Shown piece by piece: positions 572-28,649 of a stretch of 32,139 nucleotides of DNA. Below the pieces are notes generated by a model that searched no databases, was not told where the DNA came from, and worked only from the letters and a program-made list of their open reading frames with translations. Position 1 is the first letter of the stretch, and every line of letters starts with the position of its first letter. A program made the position numbers and the translations under genes. Origin of the DNA: a virus; IMG/VR virus record IMGVR_UViG_3300009494_000091, positions 1 to 32,139 of that record. The stretch is one strand, 5' to 3'.

Positions 572-992
572 ATGGGACCCAATTGACCTCAAACTGGCCC
601 AAGCCATGCTCACGGGGGCAAATACCCCTCTTGCACTAAAGGAAGAAACAGACATACCACAAACTGTCATAAAACACCGCCTCCTCGACCCAGTAAGGGC
701 GGCGTGGATATCACAGCAACTTGAGAAGTGTGTGGGCGACAGACTGGGCCAGGTCATGGCCGCTGTATACAACCGATGTTTAAGAAGTGGGGACCCCCAA
801 GCGGCTGCCCTATTACTGAAACAATATGGGAAGTTTGCACCTGAGAGGAAAGAGGTGCTACATAAGCACCACATGGACCTGACTGGTATAACTGAAGAAC
901 AACTAAACAAACTTATTGAGCAGAAACAGCGTGTGTTAAATATAACTGATGTAGAGTTTGAGGTAAAAAAGGATGACAAGACAGGAAAATGA
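510..992 (+). CDS. Putative terminase small subunit
   Basis: About 160 residues, lying directly before the large terminase and overlapping its first 20 bases, the usual place and size for the DNA-recognition subunit that starts genome packaging. The N-terminal half reads like a helix-turn-helix region (FRWDPIDLKLAQAML followed by LKEETDIPQTVIKHRL). The middle is helical with an ALLLKQYGKFAPERKE segment, typical of the oligomerisation part, and the end is charged. The start is uncertain: no ATG lies before codon 33 of this frame. TTG at 510 has AAGG five bases upstream and is preferred; TTG at 474 is in frame but has no ribosome site. The call rests on position and helix pattern, not on a diagnostic motif. 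Confidence 0.7.
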   Translation: MWKTVQERSLAVSGQDVSGFRWDPIDLKLAQAMLTGANTPLALKEETDIPQTVIKHRLLDPVRAAWISQQLEKCVGDRLGQVMAAVYNRCLRSGDPQAAALLLKQYGKFAPERKEVLHKHHMDLTGITEEQLNKLIEQKQRVLNITDVEFEVKKDDKTGK

Positions 993-2484
993 GGCCCTCT
1001 TCAGGCTCCTGGAAGAAAAGGAACGCCGCAATAAACTGTGCCCTATAGCCAATTTAATATGGAACCCTAATGGGCAGGCATTGGCGGCAAAACTCGTTGA
1101 GGAAACAGATATACTGTTATTCTGCGCGGGAAACCGCTCAGGCAAAACGCATTTTGTGGTGGCAGAAGTTGTGGCTTCCTTACTTGGGTACAGACCTTGG
1201 ATGGTACCCGGCTTCAAAATGGTTAAGGACACCAGCGGCAACCCAAAGTTTCCTGAGAGGGATGAAATGCCCACAGGGTCGTGGGTTAAGAGAAGTGATG
1301 GCCTGCCTATACAGCACCCAGCTACAGTGTTGTTTGTAACTGGGCTGCCGCTGAGCAAGGGGTTGAAGGTACTTGAGAAAAAGTGGCACGAGTTAATCCC
1401 AAAAGGTGTTAAATTTGATAGGTACTCTGGGCAGTGGGGTGTTATGGCTAAGGCCACACTTCAGGAGTCAGAGTTGATATGTGCGGCTGATACACAGAGC
1501 GTACAGAGTTTTGAAGGTGCCGACTATGACGTTGCCTTTTTTGATGAGCCTGTACGCCGCAATGTGTACACAGCCATTAAACGTGGGCTTGTTGATAGGC
1601 GTGGACGTATTGTTTGGTCTATGACACCACTCAATGATGCGCGATCGGCATGGGTTGCTCGTGATATTGTGTTAAGTGAAGATTGTAGGGATGATGTAAA
1701 GGTAGTATATGGCAGTGCTTCTGACAATAAACACGTAGATCAGGTTGCTTTGGCAGCTTTCCTGAATGATCCGTCTATGCCTGAAGACGAGAGAAGGGCA
1801 CGTAAAACCGGTGAGTTCGGGAGCATGGGTAATAAGATAGTGTCTACATTTGATGAGGCCACCGCTGTTATCCCACCAACAGACCTCCCACCAAACATTC
1901 CCAGGATATTATGTGCTGATCCACATCATAGTAAGCCGACGTGTTTAATATGGGTTGCATTGCTGTCTGATGAGCACTGGATTATCTACAGGGAGTGGCC
2001 AACAGTTCCCATACACACACAGGGCGTACCACGTATGTCAATATCTGATCTTGCCGCTAACATAAAAACAGCGGAGGGTAAAGAAAATATAGTTTACAGG
2101 GTTTGTGATCCTCAGTTTGGGCGGCAACATGGGATGAACCTGGGGGTTAGGTTTAAGTCATTTCAAGAGGAGATGGCGGAGTATAGCCTCTACTTTGACA
2201 CGCACGTGGACAATTGTATTGAACGGGGTATTGGTGCTCTACGTGATGTGTTTAAAGAGTCACCAGAGACAAAGCATCCTAAAATACAGATATTCAACAA
2301 CTTAAAGAATACCATTAACTCACTTGGGTTGTGGTCATATGAGGACACCCCAAGGGGGGACAGGAAAGTATCTGAGAAGATGAAGGATTTTTGTGATTGT
2401 GTCAGGTATACAGTAATGTATAACCCGTCAGCAAACACAGATGATGTTGGTGGACACAGCTATTTAGAAGAGGATGACGAATGA
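973..2484 (+). CDS. terL: Terminase large subunit (packaging ATPase-nuclease)
   Basis: 503-residue motor that pumps DNA into the prohead and cuts the concatemer. The ATPase domain shows Walker A GNRSGKTH (residues 53-60), Walker B VAFFDE (187-192) and a coupling motif SMTPL (216-220). The C-terminal RNase H-like nuclease domain shows acidic residues in order: Asp316 in LCADPHH, Asp379 in CDPQFGR, and Asp472/Asp475 in KDFCDCVRY. Length is normal for the family. The ATG at 973 overlaps the small terminase, with GAGG upstream. The gene ends in an ATGA overlap with the next gene, so translation is probably coupled. All key residues of both domains are present, so the protein should be active. Confidence 0.96.
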   Translation: MTRQENEALFRLLEEKERRNKLCPIANLIWNPNGQALAAKLVEETDILLFCAGNRSGKTHFVVAEVVASLLGYRPWMVPGFKMVKDTSGNPKFPERDEMPTGSWVKRSDGLPIQHPATVLFVTGLPLSKGLKVLEKKWHELIPKGVKFDRYSGQWGVMAKATLQESELICAADTQSVQSFEGADYDVAFFDEPVRRNVYTAIKRGLVDRRGRIVWSMTPLNDARSAWVARDIVLSEDCRDDVKVVYGSASDNKHVDQVALAAFLNDPSMPEDERRARKTGEFGSMGNKIVSTFDEATAVIPPTDLPPNIPRILCADPHHSKPTCLIWVALLSDEHWIIYREWPTVPIHTQGVPRMSISDLAANIKTAEGKENIVYRVCDPQFGRQHGMNLGVRFKSFQEEMAEYSLYFDTHVDNCIERGIGALRDVFKESPETKHPKIQIFNNLKNTINSLGLWSYEDTPRGDRKVSEKMKDFCDCVRYTVMYNPSANTDDVGGHSYLEEDDE

Positions 2485-3573: not shown

Positions 3574-4355
3574 CGGTTTTACTACGGTGCCACAATAGAA
3601 CGTGGCAGCTTGAGGGGACTTTAAATCAGTGTCTTCTGGATATGCCCAAACAGGGTGTGAATACTCAAATTGTGTTGATGCCAGACAAACCCACGCCTGA
3701 GGTACAGCACATTGTGGATACAGTAAAGGGACAAGACAGAGTACACGTTGTTCTGCCCCCACCCTGTAGTGAACACAGGTGGGCCAAGACTGGGATGGAG
3801 GGGCTCAATGTGGGTATGGACTATATTGATAAGTGTCTGCCCCATACAGAGATTATACACTTCAGAGATGATGATGAGATGCTGGGTATTGGCTGGTCCT
3901 CTCAGTTGTTGAAGTGTCTTGAGGACAGAGACACACTGGCCTGGTTGGCGGTGTCCCTGTATGTGTGGCAGGACTTAGAGGGTGAAGAACCTATAGTAAA
4001 TCTCAATCAGATGCACTACTCCCCTATATTTTTCAGGTATATTAAGGGTGACAGGTTCCCAACAGATGGTAGAAGTGTACAAGTAACTACACAAATACAG
4101 AAGAGAATACTGCGAAATAAGTACAGAAAGCGTACTTTGCCCTTCTACTTGTACGACTATGGTGTCACTAATTACACTGCGTTACAAGTAAAAGAGATGG
4201 TAGGGCGCATGAATGCTGCGGGTAAGGATGATAGATACACCAAGGCGTTTACTGATATACCTACATTGATGGAATTATCCTACATCCTCAGAGAGAATAT
4301 ACCCCCAATAGAGATGATAAAAACGCAATTACGTAAAAAAGGAATGTTGGCATGA
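3561..4355 (+). CDS. GT-A fold (family 2-like) glycosyltransferase
   Basis: 264 residues. The N-terminus (KVAVLLRCHNR, residues 3-13, then TLNQCLLDM) is the typical first strand and helix of family-2 glycosyltransferases, which bind a nucleotide sugar. The DDD at residues 103-105, in IIHFRDDDEM, is the metal-binding DxD motif. The C-terminal half is variable and basic (QKRILRNKYRKR), as expected of an acceptor-binding region. There is no signal peptide or membrane segment, so it acts in the cytoplasm. It lies between terminase and portal genes, overlapping both neighbours (ATGA with the portal). The acceptor is unknown; virion proteins, phage DNA or a surface glycan are all possible. Confidence 0.75.
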   Translation: MVKVAVLLRCHNRTWQLEGTLNQCLLDMPKQGVNTQIVLMPDKPTPEVQHIVDTVKGQDRVHVVLPPPCSEHRWAKTGMEGLNVGMDYIDKCLPHTEIIHFRDDDEMLGIGWSSQLLKCLEDRDTLAWLAVSLYVWQDLEGEEPIVNLNQMHYSPIFFRYIKGDRFPTDGRSVQVTTQIQKRILRNKYRKRTLPFYLYDYGVTNYTALQVKEMVGRMNAAGKDDRYTKAFTDIPTLMELSYILRENIPPIEMIKTQLRKKGMLA

Positions 4356-6337
4356 AGCAGAACCCACTCAGTATAAAAGTATTACAGAGCTTAGACTTAC
4401 AAGCACACAAGCATGACATAAAGCGGATAACTCAGGCTATTGAGCTAGAGAAGGGTAATAGAGGGAAGTGGTCAACGAACATACGGAAAGTGAGGAAACT
4501 TGTAGATGGTACGGAAAAAAGGAAACATAAGCCGTGGCCCAATGCGTCCGATACGTGCATTCCCCTCATTAAACGGCAGTTACGGAGATGGAAGCCTTCA
4601 CTCTATAACTTGTATGCCCTTGCTGACCCATTATGTGCCTTTTACGCCTCAGATATTCAGGGTCTTGAAATGGTCGAACCCGCTGAACGCTTCTTCGACT
4701 GGTTGGTAAAGGTCCACATGGACGACACAGATGATCAGATACAGTATCTTGTCAACTATATTGGTAGGGATGGGAGTGGTTATCTTGGTGTGTCGTGGGA
4801 TTACAAGACTTCAGTACAGTCACGTATAGTGTCTGTTGAAAACATCTTCCCTGAGGGATTACCCAAAGACCCGCAGCAGATCATGGGTGTACTTGTTGCA
4901 CAATATGAACTGAACGTTGTTGACCAGCGTGTTGTGGAGATGCTCAACATTGCCACACAAAAGATACAGGCGGGTGCCCCGTTTGTGCAAATAAGTTATG
5001 ATAAGGTTGTTAAGAACAAGCCCAAGATTATAACATATGATCCCACTTTTGTCGTAACTCCCGCACACAGTTCCTCAGCACATGAGGCTCCATGGGTGGC
5101 CATACTACATGAGATGACCAAGAACGAGCTTTTGCAAAAGGTCAAAGACGGATTCTTTATGGAGGAGGCTGTACAGAAGTTACTTGAGAATGCTAAGGGG
5201 AATATTAATGACACTCCTCCCAGCTCCCCTCAGGCGAGCACAGAGGGGCCATATAACAAGAATACTCGTCTACAGGATGCTGGTATATGCTCTACTAATA
5301 ATAACTACCCTGTGTATCAGGTTTACTGCCACATAGACTGGAATGGGGACGGGATAAAGGAACGGGCAGTGCTTTGGTATACAGATAAAATGGGTGCCCC
5401 TGAGGTGTTGGCTCTTTTCCCATACTCAATGTCTATGGATCACTGGCCTATATTCAGGTTTGATTATGAACGTACAGAGCCGGGCCCTTATTTGTCACAG
5501 GGCATGGGCCGTATGTTAATGCCTCTTCAGAAACAACTGAATAAACAGTACAGAGCACGATCAGACGCCATTGATATACAGCTTGCACCGGTCTTCCAGA
5601 AGCGGATTACAGGTGGATTACGCAGTAGGAATATCAAGTGGGGTCCAGGTAGGGTAATTGACGTTCAGGAGATAGGAGACCTGGCTCCGGTGGAAAAAAG
5701 TGCTTTTAATCTGCATGAATATTTAAACTCGGAAAGTGTAATAGAGAACTATGCCGACACACTGGTAGGCAGCCTTGTTAATGACCTCCAGGCAACTGGG
5801 AAGAAATTAGAGAGGCGCACTGCTACTGAGGTGGGGCAAGTGTCTCAGACAAGTGAGGCCATGGCGAGCATGGACTCTGCCTGCTTCCAAAGTACAATGC
5901 GTCTTGTATGGCAGGCATTGTGGCAAATGTGGTTGGATTTTGGTGACCGCGAGATATATTATCACATCACCAACGAGAAGACACCTGAGCTATTTAAGAA
6001 GGCAGATTATGATAAGAACTTTCAACTTATGCCAACAGGCACGCCGGGTAATACTAATAAGAACAACCAACTGAGAAAGACCATGCAGCTTTTGGAGATG
6101 GCTATGAATGATCCAACGAGGAGCTTCAACATTCCATATTTAATTCATAGAGTTGCCACACTTATCGACGACCGCATGGCTGATGCAGCTCTAATGCCTC
6201 AGGCTCAACAGGTTGCGATCCAGACAATACAACAAGCCGCTAAGTTAATTTCTGCCGGTGATCTGCCCCCAGACACACAGGCGATGTTGACATCGGGTGC
6301 TGCTAATATTGAGAAACAACAAGGAGGTTCGGCGTAG
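4352..6337 (+). CDS. Portal protein
   Basis: 661 residues, the ring at the unique head vertex through which DNA passes. The N-terminal region carries PWPNASDTCIPLI (61-73), a stretch common in podovirus-type head-tail connecting proteins. The middle has PWPNAS-distal alpha/beta wing sequence, then the helical segment GMGRMLMPLQKQLNKQYRAR typical of the portal stem, followed by the LERRTATEVGQ region and a Gln/Ala-rich C-terminal helix that could form a crown or barrel. Length is within the podovirus range. The start ATG overlaps the glycosyltransferase stop. The gene is followed by a small unknown, scaffold and capsid, which is the expected order. Confidence 0.88.
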   Translation: MKQNPLSIKVLQSLDLQAHKHDIKRITQAIELEKGNRGKWSTNIRKVRKLVDGTEKRKHKPWPNASDTCIPLIKRQLRRWKPSLYNLYALADPLCAFYASDIQGLEMVEPAERFFDWLVKVHMDDTDDQIQYLVNYIGRDGSGYLGVSWDYKTSVQSRIVSVENIFPEGLPKDPQQIMGVLVAQYELNVVDQRVVEMLNIATQKIQAGAPFVQISYDKVVKNKPKIITYDPTFVVTPAHSSSAHEAPWVAILHEMTKNELLQKVKDGFFMEEAVQKLLENAKGNINDTPPSSPQASTEGPYNKNTRLQDAGICSTNNNYPVYQVYCHIDWNGDGIKERAVLWYTDKMGAPEVLALFPYSMSMDHWPIFRFDYERTEPGPYLSQGMGRMLMPLQKQLNKQYRARSDAIDIQLAPVFQKRITGGLRSRNIKWGPGRVIDVQEIGDLAPVEKSAFNLHEYLNSESVIENYADTLVGSLVNDLQATGKKLERRTATEVGQVSQTSEAMASMDSACFQSTMRLVWQALWQMWLDFGDREIYYHITNEKTPELFKKADYDKNFQLMPTGTPGNTNKNNQLRKTMQLLEMAMNDPTRSFNIPYLIHRVATLIDDRMADAALMPQAQQVAIQTIQQAAKLISAGDLPPDTQAMLTSGAANIEKQQGGSA

Positions 6338-6386: not shown

Positions 6387-6677
6387 GTGTCTAAAGAAAG
6401 TTTGAAGAAAGAGTTAGAAGGAATTACAGATTTCAACACCCGCGCTAAGAGGGTGAACGCTATTAAAAGCAGTGGTGGGGAGTTTGGTGATATGTTCCAA
6501 CTTGAACTCGACGACGTAAAAGAGAGAGTTACTAATATGATGTTGCAGTGCAAGGACAACAATGAGTTGGCAGGTGCGTTGGTACACAGATTACAGGGAA
6601 TTGAGATAGCCAAGGCATGTGCGTTTACTGCCTGGGAATTACAAGAAAACGTAAAAGAAGAAGGAGAAGAAGACTAA
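6387..6677 (+). CDS. Small head-region protein of unknown function
   Basis: 96 residues starting with GTG, chosen because a perfect AAGGAGG lies four bases upstream (6376-6382). It is helical and charged, with no membrane segment, and ends in an acidic tail (EEGEED). It sits between portal and scaffold and shares one base with the scaffold start (TAATG). The position is that of small head-assembly or decoration proteins in podoviruses, but no family is recognised. Its strong ribosome site suggests good expression. Confidence 0.65.
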   Translation: MSKESLKKELEGITDFNTRAKRVNAIKSSGGEFGDMFQLELDDVKERVTNMMLQCKDNNELAGALVHRLQGIEIAKACAFTAWELQENVKEEGEED

Positions 6678-7408
6678 TGTCGGAATCAACCCCCAATGAA
6701 CAAACAGCTCCCAATAAAATAGAGACAAGAATAAACAAATTATATGGAGAGAAAATGGCGGCACAGGAATCCGCTAACTCCTTTAAAGTAGAAAATGACG
6801 AACTGCGTACACAGATGCTCGACTTACAGGAACAGGTAAAAGGTCTTCAGATCACAGAACCTGACGCCACCCCCAAACCAACAGTTGGTGAACACGTCGC
6901 TGAAGGTTTTGATGTGGCAAAGCTCCAAGGTATGATCGAAACATCTGTAGGAAACGTGCTCAGTAAGGGCAAAGAACAGGCGCAGAAACAAGAGGAACTC
7001 CGACAAGCACACGTGAACTCATGGGGAAGTGCAACTGAAGAAATGGCAGAGCTAAAGGATAAGCAGTCAGATTTGTACAAGACTGCTCAAAACATCTGGG
7101 AACGAGACCCAGAACTAAAGCAAAGCCGCAACGGACCCTATAAAGCCGCAATGATGGCAAGAGGAATCGTAGGAGGTACAAGCAAGTCAGGTTCCGAGAT
7201 AAACGCTGCACAGCAACAACAGACCATCAACACAAATATAGGTGTTGATAATATTGATGCTGCAATTGTAGAACTCGACAAAGAAATTGAGCTCCACAAA
7301 GAGCAACTTAGTAGACCAACTGGGGGGAATGTTGGCAGCGTATGGATGAAGTATAAGGACCTTCAAGCAAAGAAGGGTGAACTTATACGAAAACAAAAAG
7401 GTAATTAA
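6677..7408 (+). CDS. Capsid scaffolding protein
   Basis: 243 residues from the ATG at 6677. This start shares a base with the upstream stop and has AAGGAGAAGAAG before it; a longer in-frame reading from 6617 lies inside the previous gene and is rejected. Scaffolds guide capsid assembly inside the prohead and then leave. The sequence fits: low hydrophobicity, many Gln, Glu and Lys, a coiled coil near residues 13-57, a disordered middle, a second helical region near 195-215, and a strongly basic C-terminal helix (LQAKKGELIRKQKGN) of the kind that binds the capsid protein. It is immediately followed by the capsid gene. Confidence 0.8.
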   Translation: MSESTPNEQTAPNKIETRINKLYGEKMAAQESANSFKVENDELRTQMLDLQEQVKGLQITEPDATPKPTVGEHVAEGFDVAKLQGMIETSVGNVLSKGKEQAQKQEELRQAHVNSWGSATEEMAELKDKQSDLYKTAQNIWERDPELKQSRNGPYKAAMMARGIVGGTSKSGSEINAAQQQQTINTNIGVDNIDAAIVELDKEIELHKEQLSRPTGGNVGSVWMKYKDLQAKKGELIRKQKGN

Positions 7409-7410
7409 AA

Positions 7411-8337
7411 ATGGCAGTATTACAAACGTGGGATGAAATTGTTGCAGCAACACTGCGCAGTGACGCAACCATCCGCGAGGAACTTCAGGATGCAATTCAT
7501 AATGTTGATCCGTTCAGGACTCCTCTTTTATCACGGCTCCGTCAGGTGCCGATTGATAACAATCATGTACAGTGGCTGACTGACTCTTTTAGAGCAGCTG
7601 CTACTAATGCTTGGTTGGAAGGTATTGCGTTTACAGCGCAGGCTCTTACTACACCAAGTAGGTCGTCTAACACAACTCAAATCTTTTATGATGGTGGGTC
7701 TGTTTCTGACCGTCAGAAGGTTACAGGACACGCTGGAGTTGCTGATCCTATTTCATATTATGAGGGAAAAGACCTCATTGAGATGAAAAAGGATATGGAG
7801 TTGGCTCTTGTAAAAGGTTCTGCGGCAACTGGTTCTTCTAATGTTGTATCCCAACTCGGTGGATTCATGAACATTGTTAGTACCAATAAGACTTCAACCA
7901 GTTCAGTCACACTGACTGAGATAATTTTCGGTAATCTTTTGGAGATGGTGTGGGATGACACGGATGCAATGCCTACTGATGTCTACGTTGGACCAAAACT
8001 CAAACGTACCATTAGTGGATATAGTACTGACGTCACTCGTAACATCGCGGCTGAGGAAAAACGTCAACTCCTCATCGTTAATCAGTACGACTCCGACTTC
8101 GGGGCCGTTAACATTCATTTGCACAGGGACATGACGAGTTCTGAAAGTGCTTGTGATTTACTCTGCATCGATCCTAATTACTTTGCCACTGGTTGGTTAC
8201 AGCCTCTGAAAAGAGAAACGCTGACTCGTGATGGTAAGAGAGATCGTTATCAGATTTCAGGCGAGTTCACTCTTCTGTACGGAAACGAGAAAGCGGCAAT
8301 GGCGGCTGCTCATCTTAATCCTTACGTAGGTGGATAG
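7411..8337 (+). CDS. Major capsid protein (SU10-like, HK97 fold expected)
   Basis: 308 residues. The N-terminal pattern NVDPFRTPLLSRL, then VQWLTDSFRAAATNAWLEG, matches the SU10-type major head protein family (DUF5309). The middle has the expected order: RQKVTGHAGVADPISYYEGKD, ELALVKGSA, a Gly-rich GGFMNIV stretch, and a C-terminal part describing native-location proteins (VNIHLHRDM, YQISGEFTLLYGNEKAAM). No N-terminal scaffold or protease domain is fused, so a separate scaffold gene upstream makes sense. Codon choice here uses more T-ending codons than in the flanking genes, as is common for a very highly expressed gene. A terminator follows directly. Confidence 0.88.
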   Translation: MAVLQTWDEIVAATLRSDATIREELQDAIHNVDPFRTPLLSRLRQVPIDNNHVQWLTDSFRAAATNAWLEGIAFTAQALTTPSRSSNTTQIFYDGGSVSDRQKVTGHAGVADPISYYEGKDLIEMKKDMELALVKGSAATGSSNVVSQLGGFMNIVSTNKTSTSSVTLTEIIFGNLLEMVWDDTDAMPTDVYVGPKLKRTISGYSTDVTRNIAAEEKRQLLIVNQYDSDFGAVNIHLHRDMTSSESACDLLCIDPNYFATGWLQPLKRETLTRDGKRDRYQISGEFTLLYGNEKAAMAAAHLNPYVGG

Positions 8338-8503: not shown

Positions 8504-8764
8504 ATGGACACTATACAAGAGTTAGAACACTGGGTGGAGTTTCGGTCGAAGATTAGAAATAGAGTTGAGCGCACACGTGTGCGGCGTATCATTGAGAAGC
8601 TAAAGAAAGAGTTTTTAGCACTTAAAGCAAAGACTCCAATGGATCTTTTGAATGAGTATAAAAAGTATAAAAAGGGTAAAAAGTTAGACCCTGTAGTGTA
8701 TAGTGCACCAGCCATAAAGTCTGTTGTGACTCTTAAAACCAAATCCACGAGCCACAAAGAATAA
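8504..8764 (+). CDS. Small basic coiled-coil protein
   Basis: 86 residues, very rich in Lys and Arg, helical in its first two thirds (heptad-like from residue 3 to about 45), then a repeat of YKKYKKGKK and a flexible basic end. No family is recognised. AAGGAG lies seven to eight bases upstream of the ATG, directly after the T9 tract. The charge suggests nucleic-acid binding or a contact with packaged DNA. It lies between capsid and tail genes, so a minor head or head-completion protein is possible. Confidence 0.55.
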   Translation: MDTIQELEHWVEFRSKIRNRVERTRVRRIIEKLKKEFLALKAKTPMDLLNEYKKYKKGKKLDPVVYSAPAIKSVVTLKTKSTSHKE

Positions 8765-8765
8765 T

Positions 8766-9086
8766 ATGCCACACGAAACACACATTCACTTCAAAGGTAA
8801 AGGTGTAAGAGATTTCTTAGAGAATGTTGCCCTGGCGTGGAAGGCACGGTATCCACAGAGAGCAAAAGAGTATTTAAGAGTATTGAAGCAAGAGCAGACA
8901 GTCTTGGTGAACCCTACTGGCATGTCCAAGAAGGGTAACTTACGATATACTGGAGCCATACCTGAGGACATATTCACACTGTTAGAGAATAAGTATCCGT
9001 ATTTTTTCAGAAGCCCTCAGAACATGAGGGCCTTTCAAGATGTGTTTATGCAGGGATTTGCCCCTGAGAGCATCATAAGGAGATAA
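8766..9086 (+). CDS. Small hypothetical protein in the head-tail region
   Basis: 106 residues, basic, with no membrane segment. It begins one base after the preceding stop and ends one base before the next start. The helical N-terminal half includes VRDFLENVALAWKARYPQRAKEYL. The second half has a Gly-rich turn and aromatic C-terminal helices. No known motif is visible. Its place between capsid and adaptor could suit a head-completion protein, but the adjacent glycosyltransferase makes an accessory role equally possible. Confidence 0.55.
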   Translation: MPHETHIHFKGKGVRDFLENVALAWKARYPQRAKEYLRVLKQEQTVLVNPTGMSKKGNLRYTGAIPEDIFTLLENKYPYFFRSPQNMRAFQDVFMQGFAPESIIRR

Positions 9087-9087
9087 C

Positions 9088-11574
9088 ATGTCAGAGATTA
9101 AAACCCCTATTAGTGTCTGTATAATTGCAAAGAATGAAGAAGAGAATATCAAGCCCTTCTTCGACAGCTTCAAGGATATTTTAACCCATCCTGATGACGA
9201 AGTAGTCCTTGTGGACACAGGCTCAACAGATAAGACGGTTAAAATAGCAAAACAGTATGGTTGGAAGGTGATAGACCGTTCCGATCTGTGTTCAAAACAA
9301 CTCGCAGTAGACGCCAAAAACAAACTTGGTAAAGTTTTTGAGGAATATGGCGGACACGCCCACTTCAAAGACGGGATACTTACATCGTTTGCAACAGCCA
9401 GACAGGCTGGTTTTGATGCTGCAAAGAATGACGTGTGTTTTTGGATAGACTTTGATGACGACTTGGTTAATGGCCATTTGTTACGCGGCATAGTTGACCA
9501 CATTACAGAGCAAAGTGCAAAACAACACAGGAACTTTGCATTATTTCTCCGGTATGACTACAGCTTTGCCGATGATGGACAGTGCAATACTATTCTGTGG
9601 CGTGAGCGTGTGGTCAGTAAGAATGGTTTTAAGTGGAAAGGGGGTTGCCATGAAACCCTAATACCGCTGACACCTGATTATTTAATGGCGCGAGATGTTA
9701 AGTGTCCTGTAGTAATTCGCCACAGAGCACCTAAACAACACCAGTTTAGTGACTTACGTAACTACATTATACTGAAAAATGACATACTGAACAAAAATGA
9801 TCCCCGTACTATGTTCTATATTGCCAATGCGTGTAGAGGGTTGAAGCTCTTTACCGAGGCTATTAAGTGGTACAAGGAGTTTATTCCACAGAGTGGTAAT
9901 AAGGACGACATACTATCAGCTCAGATAAATCTGGCCTACTGTGTAGCGCAGCAGGGCGACAGGTGGGCAGCCATTAAGGTGTGCCTTGATGCTCTAATGA
10001 CCTCAACTGACAACCCCGTCATATACTACACACTTGCAGCTATATGGGGTGAGTTGGGCCACTGGAAAAACGTTGTAAACTGTGTTAAACTGGGAGATCA
10101 GTTTCAGTTACAGGATACACTACATGCTGTGGACCCAGCATCAATTGGGTACCAACCAGCGTTGGCACTGACACAGGCATACAGAAACTTAAAGCAACCA
10201 GAACTGGCTCTTCAAGCTGCTGACCGACTGATAAGGTGTAAACAGGACGACTTTAATGTTAAATTGGTAAATGACTTACGTCGGTGGGCATACGCAGAGA
10301 TAAACTCTAACAGGCTGCTGGCCACACTACACCAAGCTGATAACCCAGCAGAGGCAATTAAACACTTTAAACTGTCTCCACACTTAATGGACAGAGGTAT
10401 TGTTCACAAAGAGACAAAGAGTCCTGGACACAGCAGCAGTAAAAAGACAATAGCTTTTTTCTGTGGACAGTCAGCCACAACGTGGGGGCCCCCAGGCGGA
10501 GAGAAGGGTGTGGGAGCCAGTGAGAAGATGGTGTATGAGGCCGCTAAACGTCTTGTGAAAAAAGGCTTCAACGTACAGGTGTACTGTAGACTGAACAGAC
10601 CTGAGGGTGTATGTAAAGAGGGAATAAACTGGTGCTACAGTGGCAGGTTTAACCCCAAACTGTACAGAGACATTGTTGTTATATGGCGTATGCCAGACAT
10701 GGTGCAGAAGATGGACATCGAGTGTTCACAACTGTATGTGTGGATGCATGATGTGGGCAATAATGGTGTATGGACGACACCAATGCTGAGTAAATTGGAT
10801 AAGGTTTGGTTCTTGTCTGACTATCACAGAAGCCTCCACCCTGCTGTACCAGATGACAAAGTGTATATTACACGTAACGGCGTGGATTTAGACAAGCATC
10901 TGTTCACCAGTGGTCATAAAAAGAAAAAGATTGTGTACTTCTCCTCTCCTGACAGAGGTTGGGTAACTGCAATCAAAGCCTTTAACAAATCAAAGCTATA
11001 TAAAAAAGGATATGAGTTTCATATGTTTTATGGTTTTGGGGAACTGTGGAAACAATTGGCCTCAGAACAAGAGTACGGCCACATTGTGGAGCTGAACAGG
11101 GACATGCGTTTCTATGCGTATGAGTCTGAGTGTAGACAGTTGGCCATACAGAGTAAGGGTGTTGTGTACCGGGGTGCTGTTGGTTGGGGCGAAATGGCAA
11201 AGGAACTAAGGACGGCCAAGATATGGTTGTACCCTACACAGTTCCAAGAGATAAGCTGTGTTGCTGCAATGGAAGCAATGGCGGCTGGATGTAAGATAGT
11301 GGCTACTGACTTTGCCGCACTAAAAGAAACACTAAAGGACTACCCAGGATGGCACAAGACCACCGGGGCAGACGCCTCTAATATCCTCCTATCAGCAGCG
11401 AGGGATAATACGGACCCCCTGAAGCTGGCAAAGTTTGCCAAGAAGTTTAATATGGACACGTTGATTAACAGTTGGGATGCTGATTTATTTAGGGGGAATG
11501 ATGGCGACGACAACCTTCGGCCAAGCGATAATTGCGGTGCAGCGGAAGACAGGGAGGAACGATTCGGGTTTTGA
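9088..11574 (+). CDS. Fusion glycosyltransferase: GT2-TPR-GT4
   Basis: 828 residues, three parts. Residues about 5-215 are a family-2 glycosyltransferase: IAKNEEENI (13-21), VDTGSTDKT (42-50) and acidic DFDDD (121-125) for metal and nucleotide sugar, with KWKGGCHE (182-189) in the expected acceptor loop. Residues about 240-430 are helical repeats of TPR type. Residues about 455-795 are a GT-B, family-4-like domain: Gly-rich GPPGGEKGVGASEK (467-480), MHD (553-555), RNGVD (596-600) and a clear E-x7-E nucleotide-sugar motif (Glu721, Glu729). Both catalytic sites look complete, so two different sugars or two steps are possible. There is no signal peptide. AAGGAG precedes the ATG. Its 3' end overlaps the adaptor gene by 77 bases. 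Confidence 0.85.
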   Translation: MSEIKTPISVCIIAKNEEENIKPFFDSFKDILTHPDDEVVLVDTGSTDKTVKIAKQYGWKVIDRSDLCSKQLAVDAKNKLGKVFEEYGGHAHFKDGILTSFATARQAGFDAAKNDVCFWIDFDDDLVNGHLLRGIVDHITEQSAKQHRNFALFLRYDYSFADDGQCNTILWRERVVSKNGFKWKGGCHETLIPLTPDYLMARDVKCPVVIRHRAPKQHQFSDLRNYIILKNDILNKNDPRTMFYIANACRGLKLFTEAIKWYKEFIPQSGNKDDILSAQINLAYCVAQQGDRWAAIKVCLDALMTSTDNPVIYYTLAAIWGELGHWKNVVNCVKLGDQFQLQDTLHAVDPASIGYQPALALTQAYRNLKQPELALQAADRLIRCKQDDFNVKLVNDLRRWAYAEINSNRLLATLHQADNPAEAIKHFKLSPHLMDRGIVHKETKSPGHSSSKKTIAFFCGQSATTWGPPGGEKGVGASEKMVYEAAKRLVKKGFNVQVYCRLNRPEGVCKEGINWCYSGRFNPKLYRDIVVIWRMPDMVQKMDIECSQLYVWMHDVGNNGVWTTPMLSKLDKVWFLSDYHRSLHPAVPDDKVYITRNGVDLDKHLFTSGHKKKKIVYFSSPDRGWVTAIKAFNKSKLYKKGYEFHMFYGFGELWKQLASEQEYGHIVELNRDMRFYAYESECRQLAIQSKGVVYRGAVGWGEMAKELRTAKIWLYPTQFQEISCVAAMEAMAAGCKIVATDFAALKETLKDYPGWHKTTGADASNILLSAARDNTDPLKLAKFAKKFNMDTLINSWDADLFRGNDGDDNLRPSDNCGAAEDREERFGF

Positions 11575-12436
11575 GCCCCGTATTCGTGAGGCGGTAAATG
11601 CAGCTATAAGGACATGGGCCAGGATTATACCATGGCCCTCCCTTGAGAAATGGGGAGAAGTTACATATGAGGGGGGCGGGTTTCTATACCTCCCAGCAGA
11701 TGTAAACAAAGTAATATGGTTACTGGACAAGACCAATCAGAACTCGATGGAGCAGAGCCAGGACACCTGGGACAGAGACGCTCCAAGCAGCCTGTGTCAA
11801 GATACTGTGGGGACCCCGTATGAGTTTGAGGACAGAGGTATGTCCCCTACAATTACTACTGTGTCTGGTCCTATGGTGGCTTTCTCCACAGATTCAGATG
11901 ATGTTATTGGTGTTTACTTTGAGGGTATGATAAGTCCAAGCATATCCACTTACTCCCTATCCAGTGCATTTCACACCTACCACGGCATTAAAGACATAAC
12001 CCTTAACGGCTGCACTCCAGTTACATGTTCACAGATATTCACCAGTTTATCCTCAGCGGGGAAGACGGCAGACAGTGATGGTGCCATTATACTTCAATGC
12101 AATGGACAAACTGTAGGCATAATCGGCCCAATGGAGAACCAGTCCACGTACCGGAAGATTAAGATAATGAATATTCCAGCAATTGGGACTGTGTTTAAGT
12201 ACAAGTCATACTGTGACCCATGCAAACTGACAGACACCAACCAACCAGTACCATGGTCTGTGGATTATGACTTCCTCGTATGGAAAGCGGTGTCCCAGAT
12301 ATTGTGGGACTTGCGGGAGACTGACAGGGCCTTTGCCGCTGAACGTCAGGCGGGGAAGATAGCACAGCAGCATATTAAACGTGAAGAGATGTTTGGGGGC
12401 GAGGGTGGCCGTGTTCAACCGGAGGACATGGAATAA
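11498..12436 (+). CDS. Head-tail adaptor protein
   Basis: 312 residues from the ATG at 11498, chosen because AGGGGG lies just upstream; an in-frame TTG at 11477 lacks a site. The N-terminus (FGQAIIAVQRKTG, then RIREAVNAAIRTWARIIPWPSL) is the helical pattern of P22 gp4-like adaptors that dock under the portal. A beta-rich insertion of about 120 residues (rich in Ser, Thr and Gly, about 110-230) follows, and a helical C-terminus (LVWKAVSQILWDL...) closes the fold. It is directly upstream of the nozzle-like gene, as in other podoviruses. The call rests on fold pattern and gene order. Confidence 0.68.
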   Translation: MMATTTFGQAIIAVQRKTGRNDSGFEPRIREAVNAAIRTWARIIPWPSLEKWGEVTYEGGGFLYLPADVNKVIWLLDKTNQNSMEQSQDTWDRDAPSSLCQDTVGTPYEFEDRGMSPTITTVSGPMVAFSTDSDDVIGVYFEGMISPSISTYSLSSAFHTYHGIKDITLNGCTPVTCSQIFTSLSSAGKTADSDGAIILQCNGQTVGIIGPMENQSTYRKIKIMNIPAIGTVFKYKSYCDPCKLTDTNQPVPWSVDYDFLVWKAVSQILWDLRETDRAFAAERQAGKIAQQHIKREEMFGGEGGRVQPEDME

Positions 12437-14118
12437 TGGCGGACTTAGAACTAAAACTTGAACAGGCAATAGACGTGACTGGGGGTGTCCACAGTAATGT
12501 GGAACCCTACTACTTGGAACAGAATCAACTCCACTACCTACAAAATGCTGACCTTGGTGAGTTGGGCGCGAGGCGTAAGCGGCGCGGGTGTACCAGTTAT
12601 GGTGTAGAGGGTACTGAGTGTGGTGGACTTGCTGCTTGGGTATATAAAGACTTATCGCGTAAAATGGCAGGGTATTGGAATAATGAAGTGTTTGTCACTG
12701 ACGGGGACTATAGCTGGTCCCAACTTGGGACGGGTATCAGCCTTGTTACTGAACATTACCTCCACGGCACATATGGCCGCATACTCCAACACTTAACAGC
12801 CTCAGCTACCTCCACAGCAACATTCTCTACTACATGTCAGTTTATTCATAGTGTGTATGAGAGCACTAGTAATCCCACTCTATCCAACCTGTCCATGCTC
12901 CCTGAAAACGGGCTTGGGACAATGCAAGCCTCTTTTCACCCACGGACAGTTGAGTGGTGGCAAGGGAGGTTGTGGTTGGGGGGGTGTGTGGATGATGGTC
13001 TATACGCTGATGCCATATATTGGTCTACTATATTCGATGGTGGAAGTCTTGACCTCAGTAATAATGTACGCATTGACGCTGAAAAGGGTGAGGGTATTGT
13101 AAAGATACTGCCCATACGTGACCAGCAACCCAGATTATATGCATTTAAAAATCACTCCATTCACGCCTTTGATGTTGTCTGGACGAGTGGGGCACAGATA
13201 CCTACAACAGAGAACACAATTGACGCCATTAACTCCAAGGTAATGCCCATCTCTACTGAGATAGGTGCAGCAGCCCCCAACTCTATTGTGTATGCTGGTG
13301 GTGCGGGGGATAGTGACGTATTCTTCTTGTCCTATGATGGGGTCAGGTCTATGAAGAGGGTTGAGGGAGACGTGGCTGGTGGTGTGGGATCACCAATTAG
13401 TGACCCTATTAAGGATATTATAGACCGCATTAACTGGACAATGGCTGAAATTGCTACAGCGGCTGTGTATGACTTCAAGTTATACATGGGCATACCAGTT
13501 GACGGGGCGGCATATAACAATACCACTATTGTATATGACCTGGAAAAGAAGAGGTGGATAGGGGAGTACACACTGAACCCTATTGACTTCCAGTGCGCCA
13601 ATTTTGACGCATCAGGGGAGAAACTGTTCAGTGCGTGGCACAGTGCAACGTCTGAAATAGTAGGGCAGGCCACCACTGTAACATATGGAATCCACGTCTT
13701 TAATTTACTTGACGCTGATTCTGTAACAGACCCTGGTAGTGCCACTATTGAGTACATTGAAGAAACACCCGCATATAAGTTTGGACACCTTGGTAAACGT
13801 AAGAGGTGGAACTGGTTGGAGTTAGAGTTCACACCTGCCACAACGACAGTTACAATTGCTGTGTATGGGAAAATAGAGGACCAGGAATATCACTTGATAA
13901 CTTATATGGGAATAGAGCCAAACTGGGTATATCCCATTCTCCCAGCACAGTTGCCTTGGGATTTGGCTAGTTCAGCTAAGAGTATTGAGAAAGTGAACCT
14001 TATGGACCTTGAGCCGGGTAAGACGTTGCAGATAAAACTTATAACAGACAGCCCTGGAGCATTTGGTACACGTACCACACGTCTCACAGCCTGGCCCTTA
14101 GAGGAGATATGGGAATAA
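12436..14118 (+). CDS. Tail nozzle / DNA-stabilisation protein
   Basis: 560 residues, nearly all beta-strand. It shows the features of P22 gp10-like and other podovirus nozzle proteins: an N-terminal YLQNADLGELGARRKRRG segment like the shared start of this group, repeated strand-turn-strand units with WWQGRLWLGG, FFLSYDGVRSM and KRRWIGE-like turns (KKRWIGEY), consistent with a beta-propeller that plugs the portal channel. It follows the adaptor with a one-base TAATG overlap. The length fits the usual 450-650. The general role in closing the head after packaging is known for the family; that this protein does it is inferred. Confidence 0.72.
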   Translation: MADLELKLEQAIDVTGGVHSNVEPYYLEQNQLHYLQNADLGELGARRKRRGCTSYGVEGTECGGLAAWVYKDLSRKMAGYWNNEVFVTDGDYSWSQLGTGISLVTEHYLHGTYGRILQHLTASATSTATFSTTCQFIHSVYESTSNPTLSNLSMLPENGLGTMQASFHPRTVEWWQGRLWLGGCVDDGLYADAIYWSTIFDGGSLDLSNNVRIDAEKGEGIVKILPIRDQQPRLYAFKNHSIHAFDVVWTSGAQIPTTENTIDAINSKVMPISTEIGAAAPNSIVYAGGAGDSDVFFLSYDGVRSMKRVEGDVAGGVGSPISDPIKDIIDRINWTMAEIATAAVYDFKLYMGIPVDGAAYNNTTIVYDLEKKRWIGEYTLNPIDFQCANFDASGEKLFSAWHSATSEIVGQATTVTYGIHVFNLLDADSVTDPGSATIEYIEETPAYKFGHLGKRKRWNWLELEFTPATTTVTIAVYGKIEDQEYHLITYMGIEPNWVYPILPAQLPWDLASSAKSIEKVNLMDLEPGKTLQIKLITDSPGAFGTRTTRLTAWPLEEIWE

Positions 14119-21365: not shown

Positions 21366-24300
21366 ATGGACTGGAATAAATTTTTATCCGCTGGAGCTGA
21401 ACCCCTAAAGTCTACAGAACAAGTGGAGTTTGATGAAGCTATCCAACTGGATGTAGTTAAACCCAACCCTGTTTTTAATAATTCCCCTGTACGGGCCCTA
21501 CAAATAATGGAGCAGGACGAGGAAGAGAGGGAGAATAACTGGCATTATACTAAGGACCGGCTTGTGGACAGACTGTCTGATCTAGGCACTGAAACAGCGG
21601 GCTTAATCTTTGGTAAACACGCACCACTTGGTGGGTTTGGACTTTTCCAAGGCCGCAGTACTCAGTATGAGCAGATGCAGGGAATGATCCTTAATTACAG
21701 TGGCTTCAGGAAGGGGTCTGGAAAGGGTGGACCCTCTGCATTGGGAGAGGCAATGGCCTATGTGGGTGATCTTAAACGGAAGCTACACTCCAATGGTGTC
21801 AATGTAAAGGACTCCTTTAACCTCCGTAACATACTGGAGGGTACCCATTTTACCCTAATGGATAATTTGGGTAAGAACTTCCACGGCAGAGTAGCCGAGG
21901 GGGATGCCAAATTGTTGACTGGTATGGCTGTAATGGGTCAGGTTGTACGCCACTCAGAGAAGGCAGACAACACAATAGCTGACACTATGCCTATTGTTCT
22001 TGATACACTAAAGGAGGGCGGCCTTGAATTTGACGGCCCGTGGGGGAGGTTTAACAACGAACTGCATCAACTCCGCAGGGAAAGGGACTTGGACACCACT
22101 GAAACTCCCTTAAGCGTGAACAAAACCATGCAGAATAGAGGCTGGTTGGATGTGGATGCCACACGTATCAAAGATTGGTACCAAAAACTGACTGGGAAGG
22201 AAGCTCCTGAGGACATACTCCTAGATGATGCCAGGAAGCCCATCTTCGCATTTTTGGATAAAGTGGACTCACTCACTGCAAAAGCCAACAAAGCCGTCAT
22301 ATGGAAGGCTATGGGGGTGAATATCAACCTTGACCACGTTAACGAGGATGGTACTATCGCAGGACTACGTGAGATGCGAGAGAGTGCGGGAGCCATGATG
22401 CGGTTTGATAGGGCCCTTGGATTGGATGTGGCATACGATAATGAGTACGAACACGCTGAAAATGCTGCTGTCAAGAGCATAAAAGCTGATATGTTTACAA
22501 AAGGACCCACTGAAGCCCTCAAAAACACAGGGTTAAGCGATGATAGATTAAACGAACTCACCAAGCAGTACACCCAAAAACTCCAGCCCCCAGCCCCGGT
22601 TGTACCTGGTAAAACTTCTCCGTTTGGTCGATACCAGATAACAACTGAACAGGGTGCATGGGAGTGGCTACGCCGCCAGGCGTTCCAAGACAAAGAAGTG
22701 GCTGCGGCTATTGGTGTGGCCAAAGGGTCCAAACGACACGCTTGGATTAAAAGCAACACAGAGAAACTGGATAAGATAGCTCTTGAGGATGATATACCCC
22801 CAGAACTCATGGCTGAGTACAGGGATAAAGTGAAGGACGCCCGTATTAAAGCCACAGCAGTTAGTGATAGACGACAACAGGAATATGATTGGGCATATGC
22901 AATCCGCCACGCTAATTCTATTGTGGGAGGTATTGGGCAGCTCATACACAAAATACCCGGTATTGGATACATGGGTGATAGTCTTGGGGGTATATACAAG
23001 CAGTTGAATGCAGAAATGTACAACATCCCAGTAAGTGAGCGGCTTGATGAAAGTATTGGACAGAATATTGTAGACGTATTACAGAAGAATATCACGGATA
23101 CTTTGGGCTTTATGCCCTGTAGCCAAGATGAACTCATTGAAAAGTACCTGGACAGAGCAGCAGCAGGAGAGACCATACCTATTGCCGACCAGTTATATAC
23201 ACTTGGTGGGCAGGGCATGCGCATGTTCTATGACCTCCCCTTCATAATGATGAAAAACCCGGCTGAATTCGCGGCTATAGGGGGGTCCCTACGGTTGTAT
23301 GGTAAAGCAGCCACAGGCGTTATCAACAAAGTGCAAAAAGCCACAGGGTCTAAGGGTCTGGGCACTCTTACTGGTTTTGCGCTGCGCCCCCACGAGTTCA
23401 TTAAGAACATGACTAAGCCTCTACGTGACTTCCAGAGTGAGCGTATGTTGTTTGGTATGTCTGTGGGTAAGTTCAAGCAGACACTCAATAAAATGCCAGC
23501 CCCACTAAGAGACCAGTATTGGGAAACTTTTAAGAAGATATCCAATGAACTTGCCACCAGTGATGTTGAGGGTATGGTCCCCATATCTAACAAACTCAAA
23601 TCCCTTGAGTCTGCTATGGGCCACCTTATTGCTAAAGCGGGGGCACAAAAGGGACTATCTAATAAAGACGTACACACATTTGCTGAATTGGCACGGAAAC
23701 ATGATGTGCCTCTGGAAGCCACAAACTTAGCATTTGCCACACCCTTTGGCAATGGCCGTTTTGTGGACGGAATGGTAGCAGAACACACATATATTAAACA
23801 ACAACAGCACTTTGCCAACATAGAGAAGTCTATTGAGGTACAGGCTGCAGGTAGATTTGGAACCACAGCAGCTCAAAGCGTAGTAAACTTCAACAACAAC
23901 TATAGAAAATGGGTCAGTTCCCCTAAACAACGAGCCGCTAAGAGCCTTAGAAACGCTTTAAACAAAAGAGGGTGGAGCACTGAGTGGGTGGACAAGCACA
24001 TAGAAGCTTTTACAGCACGTGAAAAATATGAAGAGGCTACCAGTATGGACCAGACCATATTTGAGTCAGCCGCACAATACAACTATGAAGCAACACGCCG
24101 CACTAACTTCCGTAAACGCCTTATGGATGGGATGCGAGAGACATTTGGCCTCCGCACAAATAGTCTTAAAGGCCTCCTCCCTAAAGAGGAAGCCACAACA
24201 CCTGAGGGTAAGGCCCGTGTGAAGCAGATGCAGCAGGATATAGAAGTGCTTGAGAATGTACGGAACACTCTAGACTATGATGGAAGGGCCCTAGGGAAAC

Positions 24301-27300
24301 TCGGTCAGAGTAGACTGGTCCCTCTTGCTGATAATCCCGCTTCAGAGTTTAAAGAAGTGGAAAATGGATGGCGTACGTCTGGTGGTGACTCCCATAAGGA
24401 AGCCATATACAACCACCTTGCACGGCTTGTGTATGCAGACATGGATGTAATAGGAGATCTTGCCTACTTCTTTAATGATTCAAAACTGGCACATAACCTT
24501 GCCAAACTTCGTACACGTAAACCCACAGACAAACACTTCGACGTACTGAAGAAGATCATTAAGACATCTGAAAAGAACTCAGAGAATAAACTGTTCACAG
24601 ACAGGCCCCCAGTGCATAAGGAACAAGTGATACGACAAGGACGTGATATGGTAGCGGCAATTAAGAATGTAGCGGGTGAGCACAACAGCATGATACTGGC
24701 AGACCTTGCCACAACAGCTATCAACTCCCATTACAACATGAACCAGAACAGAATCTTCCGTATGAAGTCCCAACGTATTGAGAATCAAGGCCAGTGTGCC
24801 CAGGCCAGTATCTCCAAAGCCCGTGACCTTATGGATCAACTGTCTACAAAACAAGAAAAGGAGTTTGCTGGGTTGTCGAAGCTTCCCCCTAAGGAGTTAC
24901 TCAAGAGAGAAGGGTCAAGTCCTATGGTGGACGCAGCCATTGAGGTACTAGGGATACGTAACCACCTTATTGATATGATGGTGGACGTAGGCAAGTTGAC
25001 AAATGAAGAGGCCAACAGTATGCGTAGTAAGGGAATCGACCCCCATGTGTATGCTAAGGACATATACCGCAGTGACTTACGTAAATATGAATCTGCCACA
25101 CACACAGTTACTCAGAACGTGGGCAAAGACGCACCAGAGTTCTCACGTCTAAACGTACAGAGAAAGGCAAACACCCCCAGGATTACATGGTATGATGAGG
25201 CCCAAGGTAAACGCCGTATAATTGACATAACCACAGACAAAGACGGAAAGACACTACCCCTTAACAAACGCCGTAAAGAGGCCACACGCCGAATAAAAGA
25301 AATTGTTACAAAACAACCCGGCCTTAAGGACAAAGTGAAACTGGTCGAGGAACTCACCGAGTTTGATATGGGTATGATGGGTCTGTTTGATGCCGAGGGC
25401 AGCCATATTACATCTGTATTGCAGGAGATGTTGGTGGACGTGACAAAAGCACGACTACTTAATGAAGTTGGGTTAATGCAAGGCATGATAATGAACAGGA
25501 TGCCACGGGAATATAGGACAAACGGCAAGGCAGGAGACTGGGTATATCTTGGCCCCACCAAACGCTATAAGGGCAGCGGTGAGTCTGAGCCCGTATCATT
25601 TCAAAACCTCACACATGAACAACGTCTACATCTCCGCAGAGAGTGGGGGACTATGGCCGGAAAATATGTACACAGACGCTTCTTCGACCACATCAACTCC
25701 TGGGAGGATTACTCCACACTGTTAAGTGCAGTGAGTAAGTCCATGAAAGAGGGTCGCAATGAGATGGGTAAGACACTGGGAGCGGAGTATGATAACATTA
25801 TTGACACCGCTACATCAAATATTATGGACAAATTATCCACACCTGGGGACATGCCCTTCTTCAAGTGGGCTGGACGAGCACTGCGGCAGAACTTAATCAC
25901 TCAGAGTGTAAGCACCTTCAATAAAAACTTCATGGGGGCATTGACTTTTGCCCATCAATCAGGAGCCAAGCTACTAGACCCCTGTTTCTGGAAGGGGTTT
26001 GGACAAAAGAAACATCTTGCAAATTTTGACTACCTCCTTGACGTGTTTAATGAGCACGACATATACAAGCTTAAAGTAAGGGGTACACCAGAACAACAAC
26101 AACAATCTTTAAATGCAGAGTTTGCGCGGAAGAAATTTAGTGCTGATAAGATTGATATGCTACAAAAGTTTAAATATTGTATGGACCACGGCCTTATTGA
26201 AAGGTCTGATGAGGGTATTGTTAAGGGGGGTGAACGTCAGTTACGACCAGGTAAACGTTCTGTTGGAGAGCAGCGGAAGAAGGACCAGCGCAACACTTTA
26301 CGAGATATCACAAGACACCAAGAAGTAATATCCCATCTTAAGAATGTATTAGAGACAGCCGAACAAAAAACACCAGAAAGAGTATACACCCCCAAGCAGA
26401 GAGCACAGGCAGAACGGCGTATTATTGCACACACCACAGAAATGACCAAACTCAAGAAAGAAATGATTAAGTACAACTTCCGCAGTAATTGGCGAGATGG
26501 TTTGGATGAGGCGTGGAGGTATATTAAAAGTGGTGACCCTAAAAAACGTGGTAACTACTCTGTAATTAAGGAACGTATTGGACAGGCTTATGGTAAAGTT
26601 GATCCACGTGTTAAGTGGATGACTTTTAACTACCTTGTAAGTGAGATGGGTTTGTCTAAACAAGCAGCCGTGGAACGGGTTAAGGACTACCACCAGAACT
26701 ACGGTGCTGTGTCTCCAGGAGTACGTAAACTCAGTAACGCACCGCTTATAGGATCATTTGTACCCTCATTCCCAGCAGAGGCCGCACGTATTATTAAAAA
26801 TGGTATGATGGAGAATCCTGGTCGAATCTTTAGTCCACTTATATCAATGGCCACAGCCAACTCAGCCGCTTTAATGTCCCAAGGTATGATGTTATCTGAC
26901 TACGCCAACATTACAGGCAATGAGTCTGGTTGGGAACAACTGCGTGGAATGTTGACAGGTCTTATAATACCTACAGGACACGGAAATTTCACACGTTTTG
27001 ACATGACTGACTTCACACCCTTCGGACCCTTTATGGAGTCTTCCTCTATGTTCAAGACACTTACTGATACTATGGCAAAAGATAGCATGCTTGCACAGGC
27101 TGCAATACCCGCAGTAAACTTCATGTCTAACTTTGTTCTTAACACACCAGGTATGCAAGCCACACAAAAACTGGCAACTGGTGTGGACCCCTGGTCGGGC
27201 AAAGTAACATACCAACGTGGTCTCGGTGATGGTTTAGCATCACTTGCAAAAAGCGGAGCTAACCTTTTCCTCCCTGCTGCTGTTACACAAACATATGAGA

Positions 27301-28097: not shown

Positions 28098-28649
28098 TCA
28101 CTTTGCGGGTACACCTTTAACAATTACATTTGGAGGCACATTCCTTGTAACCACCGCACCGGCACCAACAATAGACCCACTACCAATTATAATGTTGGGT
28201 AAAATTACTGCCCCAAGCCCAATAAATGCACCCCCACAAATAGTAACCCTTCCCCCAATAGTTGTATTGGCTGCTATGTTTACATATTCACCTAACCACA
28301 CATCGTGTTCTAATACTGCACCAGAATGAACTATACTATGCCTACCTATGAAAACACCATTAGATATTATAGCCCCCATATTTAATATACACCCAGGAGC
28401 AACATAAGAGCTTTTATGAATATAGGTTTGCACTAAAGAAATAAACTGTGATGGCTCAATTAAATGTGCTACTTTTCTCTTTAAACGCCAATCCCCGTGG
28501 GCTATTATAGCTTTATCCCATGGCCAAACAGGAACTTTAATGTTGTTCTGTTCAATGTCCCATGGTATACAGTTATACTTATCTTCAAAAGCATTGATAC
28601 AATATTGAGCCTGTGCGCCAGTACCACAAATTAACAACGTATTCATCAT
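28098..28649 (-). CDS. PglD/NeuD-like sugar acyltransferase
   Basis: 183 residues. The N-terminus (LLICGTGAQAQ, 5-15) is the short Rossmann-like lobe of the PglD/NeuD family, which binds the nucleotide sugar. Residues about 80-170 are a left-handed beta-helix made of hexapeptide repeats (for example GAIISNGVFIGRHSIV, IGGRVTICGGAFIG) that binds acetyl-CoA. His115 in LEHDVWLG is at the place of the catalytic base, and the family end GAGAVVTRNVPPNVIVKGVPAK is intact. Known members N-acetylate UDP-4-amino sugars or O-acetylate sialic acid. AAGGAT precedes the ATG. The gene ends flush against the late operon stop and is lower in G+C than the protease gene upstream. Confidence 0.88.
   Translation of the reverse strand: MMNTLLICGTGAQAQYCINAFEDKYNCIPWDIEQNNIKVPVWPWDKAIIAHGDWRLKRKVAHLIEPSQFISLVQTYIHKSSYVAPGCILNMGAIISNGVFIGRHSIVHSGAVLEHDVWLGEYVNIAANTTIGGRVTICGGAFIGLGAVILPNIIIGSGSIVGAGAVVTRNVPPNVIVKGVPAK

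Follow-up and report, generated by a model that had tools for sequence, protein, structure and literature searches.

The window analysed here is a 32,139-nt genome fragment of an uncultured phage (positions 1 to 32,139 of IMG/VR record IMGVR_UViG_3300009494_000091; all records compared below likewise derive from uncultured phages). It encodes, in order, a terminase, a portal, the gene at 6617–7408, an SU10-type major capsid protein (MCP), two small ORFs, an 828-aa glycosyltransferase (GT), an adaptor and a nozzle-like tail protein (Table 1). The GT ORF is preceded by a Shine-Dalgarno (SD) sequence, AAGGAG, its ATG lies one base beyond the upstream stop codon (9084–9086), and the gene is tightly coupled within the series MCP, two small ORFs, GT, adaptor and nozzle. 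An earlier sequence-only reading of this DNA had placed the GT between the capsid and adaptor genes, which holds, with the ORFs at 8504–8764 and 8766–9086 lying between it and the MCP. The overlap with the adaptor start, also noted in that reading, was borne out: the adaptor probably starts at 11498, judging from its own SD sequence (AGGGGG) inside the GT gene, and the true overlap would therefore be about 77 bp. Synonymous divergence (dS) in this overlapping tail is about 0.3, against saturation elsewhere (one comparison, with locus L004, and a small sample of 33 codons), as use of both reading frames would predict. The product of 8766–9086 matches no known family and its structure model was weak, below interpretable quality; in some 30 divergent loci, an iterated HMM found putative homologues next to the MCP.

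Table 1 Features of the window relevant to the fused glycosyltransferase and its genomic context.
Feature	Position	Strand	Basis
Terminase	973–2484		
Portal	4352–6337		PF23899
Gene between portal and MCP	6617–7408		
SU10-type MCP	7411–8337	+	PF17236, 7.1e-64
Small ORF, closest relatives only	8504–8764	+	
Small protein, 106 aa, directly ahead of GT	8766–9086	+	Iterated HMM
Fused GT2-TPR-GT4 glycosyltransferase, 828 aa	9088–11574	+	Pfam, AlphaFold2 model, 34-relative alignment
GT2 (GT-A) domain, residues ~1–215	9088–9732	+	PF00535; model; invariance in 34 relatives
DxDD motif (GT2 domain)	9448–9459	+	Invariant in 34 relatives
HE motif (GT2 domain)	9649–9654	+	Invariant in 34 relatives
TPR-like helical bridge, residues ~216–435	9733–10392	+	Helix pairs in model; weak TPR profiles
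GT4 (GT-B) domain, residues ~450–800	10435–11487	+	PF13692, PF00534; model; invariance
HD motif (GT4 domain)	10747–10752	+	
Arg623 (GT4 domain)	10954–10956	+	
E721 and E729, EX7E (GT4 domain)	11248–11274	+	
Overlap of GT 3' end and adaptor start	11498–11574	+	Adaptor SD at 11491–11496; reduced synonymous change
SU10-adaptor-like protein	11498–12436	+	PF24175, 2.9e-4 (below cut-off); position; orthologues
Nozzle/stabilisation-like tail protein	12436–14118	+	Orthologue "phage stabilization protein" in MW202524
NeuD/PglB/VioB-like sugar N-acetyltransferase	28098–28649	-	TIGR03570, 6.8e-35 (below its cut-off); perosamine N-acetyltransferase 4ea7, 7.8e-19
Formyltransferase-like protein, possible sugar N-formyltransferase	28672–29328	-	PF00551, 0.0085
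ClpP-like protease	29330–29872	-	PF00574, 9e-14
Putative protein with DegT-like motif (D120, SFEESK148, GGGA)	29854–30633	-	Motif alignment only
Metallophosphoesterase	30960–31637	-	phrog_221, 3.7e-34

Domain-resolved homology search and structure prediction agreed with the initial proposal of two different transferase folds joined by TPR helices. In Pfam, the N-terminal half matched PF00535 (E = 1e-15, residues 9–64), the C-terminal half passed the gathering cut-offs of PF13692 (2.4e-7) and PF00534 (2e-6), and several TPR models matched the intervening bridge, all below cut-off. No model of GT41, the catalytic family that follows the TPRs in OGT, was listed at E 0.01, the C-terminal half matching GT4 instead. 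Among PHROGs, a beta-1,4-glycosyltransferase family covered residues 102–407 (1.9e-33) and a second glycosyltransferase family residues 559–752. The AlphaFold2 model, built from a 30-sequence alignment drawn from the window and from viral contigs (pLDDT 88.7, pTM 0.81, pLDDT of at least 90 at 544 of 828 residues), displays a GT-A fold (residues ~1–215), helical repeats (~218–425) and a GT-B fold (~454–800) in this order, i.e. both transferase folds rather than one alone. The N-terminal domain thus combines a PF00535 match, a DxD-type motif and a GT-A fold, which defines GT2, and the C-terminal domain combines the two-Rossmann GT-B fold with the GT4 profiles. No transmembrane-like segment was seen in the GT sequence, and the protein is most likely a soluble, cytoplasmic dual transferase.

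When the model was compared to the PDB with Foldseek, ThuS and SunS ranked first (best match 2.9e-15, 7msk; SunS 7msp, 332–340 aligned columns at an rmsd of 3.6–3.8 Å), followed by SPINDLY (SPY), OGT and GT4 enzymes, the GT4-type matches including PimA, tll1591 and BshA. Matches to OGT and SPY were local only, with a query-normalised TM-score of about 0.3. By sequence, the best PDB match was GmaR (2.1e-7), a GT2-TPR enzyme that places GlcNAc on flagellin and whose TPR region has been proposed as the acceptor-binding part (PMC9638930). These relationships make plausible the suggestion, raised in the sequence-only reading, that the TPR bridge hints at a protein acceptor. Each known system nevertheless differs from the window GT. 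SunS and ThuS likewise have helical repeats after a GT2 domain and modify ribosomal peptides, but they lack the GT4 domain and are 15–17% identical to the window GT, which scored 15.6 bits against a cut-off of 350 for the SunS equivalog TIGR04195 and sits in a phage structural rather than a glycocin context. Listeria GmaR has GT2, then TPRs, and a protein acceptor, as we propose for the window GT, but its C-terminus is an antirepressor domain instead of a second GT. OGT and SPINDLY carry a TPR solenoid ahead of a GT-B domain, as here, but theirs belongs to GT41, whereas that of the window is GT4 by Pfam. Among viral proteins, the best fold match was A0A6J5QFS6, deposited without a functional study. 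Multi-domain GTs of giant and algal viruses in BFVD, including Pithovirus, Indivirus and Heterosigma akashiwo virus, also match much of the model length at low TM-score.

To place the gene in its lineage, viral contigs were scanned with an alignment of three GTs, which recovered 56 loci; the same scan with the single sequence P0001 returned no match, and a 30-row GT alignment was too divergent to serve as a genome-scan query. In all 35 loci with both genes, GT and MCP share a strand, and in most of these the MCP comes first, with the GT usually 0.3–2.8 kb and once 6.5 kb downstream. Because these loci had been chosen by their GT, the search was repeated with the MCP as query. A full-length GT followed the MCP and a small ORF in 7 of 7 loci whose MCP was at least 53% identical, and most loci of the next tier (32–38%) with enough downstream DNA also carry it likewise. 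More distant MCP relatives had no full-length GT, and most phages of this MCP type do not carry the gene: among the 100 annotated phage records matching the window MCP, only two kinds matched across GT2 and most of the GT, namely MW202524 (with duplicates) and MW202497. MW202524 (ctKR88), for which no functional study is deposited, encodes a full-length tri-domain homologue that likewise sits between MCP and adaptor. Across loci, GT distances correlated with those of the MCP (r = 0.76, 0 of 5000 permutations) and portal (r = 0.83; portal versus MCP, r = 0.73), and the GT–MCP correlation persisted at r = 0.49 (7 of 5000) when restricted to MCPs below 50% identity. From sequence comparison, vertical inheritance as a core gene within a single SU10-MCP-type lineage would fit better than recent acquisition as a moron. 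This broad conservation in relatives had been missed initially. Genome contigs yielded mainly two kinds of match, GT2-TPR proteins from Firmicutes and, from Deltaproteobacteria MAGs, matches that were partial or to GT4; the window MCP, portal and terminase were absent from all 80 genome-contig loci, so no host could be inferred from them.

A second group of genes, on the minus strand, includes predicted sugar-modifying functions (Table 1). For the formyltransferase-like protein, the orthologue in the nearest relative matches PF00551 at 4.4e-9, above cut-off. The DegT-like identity of 29854–30633 found no support in NCBIfam, PDB, BLASTP or hhalign comparisons, and scans for relatives were empty. 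Related phages carry comparable genes in varying arrangements: L005 groups a formyltransferase gene with those for an epimerase and a DegT protein; a DegT adjoins metallophosphoesterase and ClpP-like genes matching those of the window in L009; the stretch from the GT to the nozzle gene in L011 contains genes for an epimerase and a DegT protein (2.6e-84); and a further GT4-type gene and two methyltransferases lie between the GT and the adaptor/nozzle side in ctKR88. Of 70 proteins from such islands in relatives, seven matched GT2 and three GT4. Neither the minus-strand sugar genes nor the glycan islands of relatives had been picked up in the sequence-only reading. Separately, in a DegT-family protein of L011 (L011:9448-10575) the PLP lysine is replaced by His (SFYPTHQ), a feature known from ColD-type dehydratases. 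The ClpP-like and metallophosphoesterase genes stay adjacent in L144/L147 and L150, and the window also encodes a 2243-aa virion-module protein (21366–28097) for which neither Pfam nor PHROGs gave a significant match.

On balance, we lean towards the GT being a soluble bifunctional protein glycosyltransferase that builds a short glycan on a virion protein. The peptide-GT folds, the GmaR match and the lack of a transmembrane-like segment are best explained by a soluble enzyme that glycosylates protein. The GT2 and TPR portion would hold the protein acceptor and attach the first sugar, as in SunS, ThuS and GmaR, and the GT4 half would then extend this sugar into a short glycan; we expect the GT2 half to act first because of its likeness to peptide GTs. 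The likeliest acceptor would be the MCP itself or another head or tail protein encoded nearby, and the window N-acetyltransferase and formyltransferase-like products may tailor the donor amino sugar of the dual GT. A virion-protein target is suggested by the position of the gene, its co-divergence and precedents in other viruses (PMC12363180, PMC7019647). Locus comparisons and co-divergence also reveal a phage-encoded GT linked to virion genes, a feature expected of a virion glycosylation system, and thereby suggest that these phages may coat their own particles with sugar. Several observations count against this explanation: the gene is split or displaced in one branch, E729 is often Lys (see below), a search of the virion proteins of the window found no obvious Ser/Thr-rich acceptor tail, and most phages with this type of MCP do not have the gene.

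The GT could instead act on glycans of the host surface or on a lipid-linked sugar, e.g. in a superinfection block or serotype change. Many phage GTs act in this way, as in O-antigen conversion, genes for amino sugars are a typical feature of surface polysaccharides, and a GtrB-like PHROG weakly matches residues 8–57 (1.8e-4). GtrB differs, however, from the window GT, in which no transmembrane-like segment was seen, and both the TPR bridge with its peptide-GT fold and the core head-tail position with MCP co-divergence, which is not the pattern of a moron, make a host-glycan role unlikely.

Conservation and selection bear on whether both halves are active, since it is conceivable that only the GT2 half transfers sugar and that the GT4-type half serves for sugar binding or as a scaffold. 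Across 34 dereplicated full-length relatives (22–74% identity to the window GT, median 26%), D121, D123, D124, W183, H188, E189, R224 and N225 in the N-terminal half and G474, G476, S478, E479, R534, H554, D555, N597, S619, R623 and E721 in the C-terminal half are invariant, residues which we take to be catalytic from knowledge of the GT-A and GT-B fold classes. The second Glu of EX7E, E729, is Glu in the window and in 15 of the relatives but Lys in 18, so that the motif is whole in the window yet no family rule; the initial description of both catalytic signatures as intact is accordingly right for this protein and does not extend to its family. In addition, the GT4 half is interrupted by inserted genes in eight loci, seven times by groEL (519–574 aa; L003, L027, L028, L032, L034, L035 and L037, e.g. 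L028:2915-6872), in one phage branch and directly after a conserved NGI motif, and once by an HNH-like gene (L059). In one branch the GT, split within its GT4 half, lies between terminase and portal, and in L003, L023, L027, L028, L033, L035 and L037 the GT is 9–12 kb upstream of the MCP, on the terminase side; neither fusion nor MCP adjacency is therefore strictly needed. Yet HD is retained in the N-terminal pieces of the split genes and the Arg-Gly motif in their C-terminal pieces, H554, D555, R623 and E721 are invariant in all 34 relatives, and GT2, TPR and GT4 alike show low amino-acid divergence against saturated synonymous divergence, the signature of purifying selection, which is equal in the GT4 and GT2 halves (these ratios being bounds only, since dS is saturated). 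A GT4 half devoid of transferase activity is thus about as improbable as a host-glycan role. In L059 (L059:9776-12785), the interrupting ORF has HNH-endonuclease-like motifs, lies at the same NGI point and repeats at its own end the GT sequence EKVFITSNGL. To judge from these sequences, the NGI point looks as if it were an insertion hot spot.

Two further roles appear less probable still. The GT might glycosylate hypermodified phage DNA, virus GTs that hypermodify DNA being known (Pyle et al. 2024, as cited in PMC12619734), but a thymidylate-synthase-family (hydroxymethylase, PF00303) gene was present in 0 of 20 records, two of them complete phages and the rest mostly fragments, with positive controls, and the fold is nearest to peptide GTs. 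A search for TET/JBP oxygenases gave no match, with controls equally silent. Modification of a host protein in aid of takeover would also be compatible with the TPR bridge, which would accommodate a protein acceptor of either origin, but the structural-operon position and the co-divergence with MCP and portal favour a virion target and leave this role similarly doubtful.

Protein glycosylation of the virion by a dual GT has partial precedents. Mycobacteriophage capsids and tail tubes have been proved to be glycosylated by phage GTs (Freeman et al. 2023, as reported in PMC12363180), and in that text Che8 gp110 and Corndog gp38 are phage GTs with proven virion targets, whereas for the window GT a virion glycan is a proposal. 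The account of the mycobacteriophage system in the same text includes neither the GT2-TPR-GT4 fusion nor the position between MCP and adaptor. In the eukaryotic virus PBCV-1, the A064R protein likewise carries two successive GT domains in a single viral protein, for a capsid-protein glycan (PMC7019647), but its domains are different, the third being a methyltransferase, and we do not claim homology. No paper on a fused GT2-TPR-GT4 family was found in the partial literature covered, which is not to say that the family has never been described.

A broader and more tentative proposal is that a one-protein, two-step protein-glycosylation enzyme is an inherited core component of a broad uncultured SU10-MCP-type lineage, together with the phages' own supply of N-acyl amino sugars (N-acetyl- and N-formyltransferases, DegT, epimerase), such that the virion glycan would be largely phage-encoded and the sugar genes exchangeable. 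Virion glycosylation has been proven for few phages, and the cases found are mycobacteriophages. If the proposal is true, capsid or tail glycosylation would be a regular trait of a large lineage rather than an oddity, and the GT would provide a compact enzyme for building protein glycans in bacteria.
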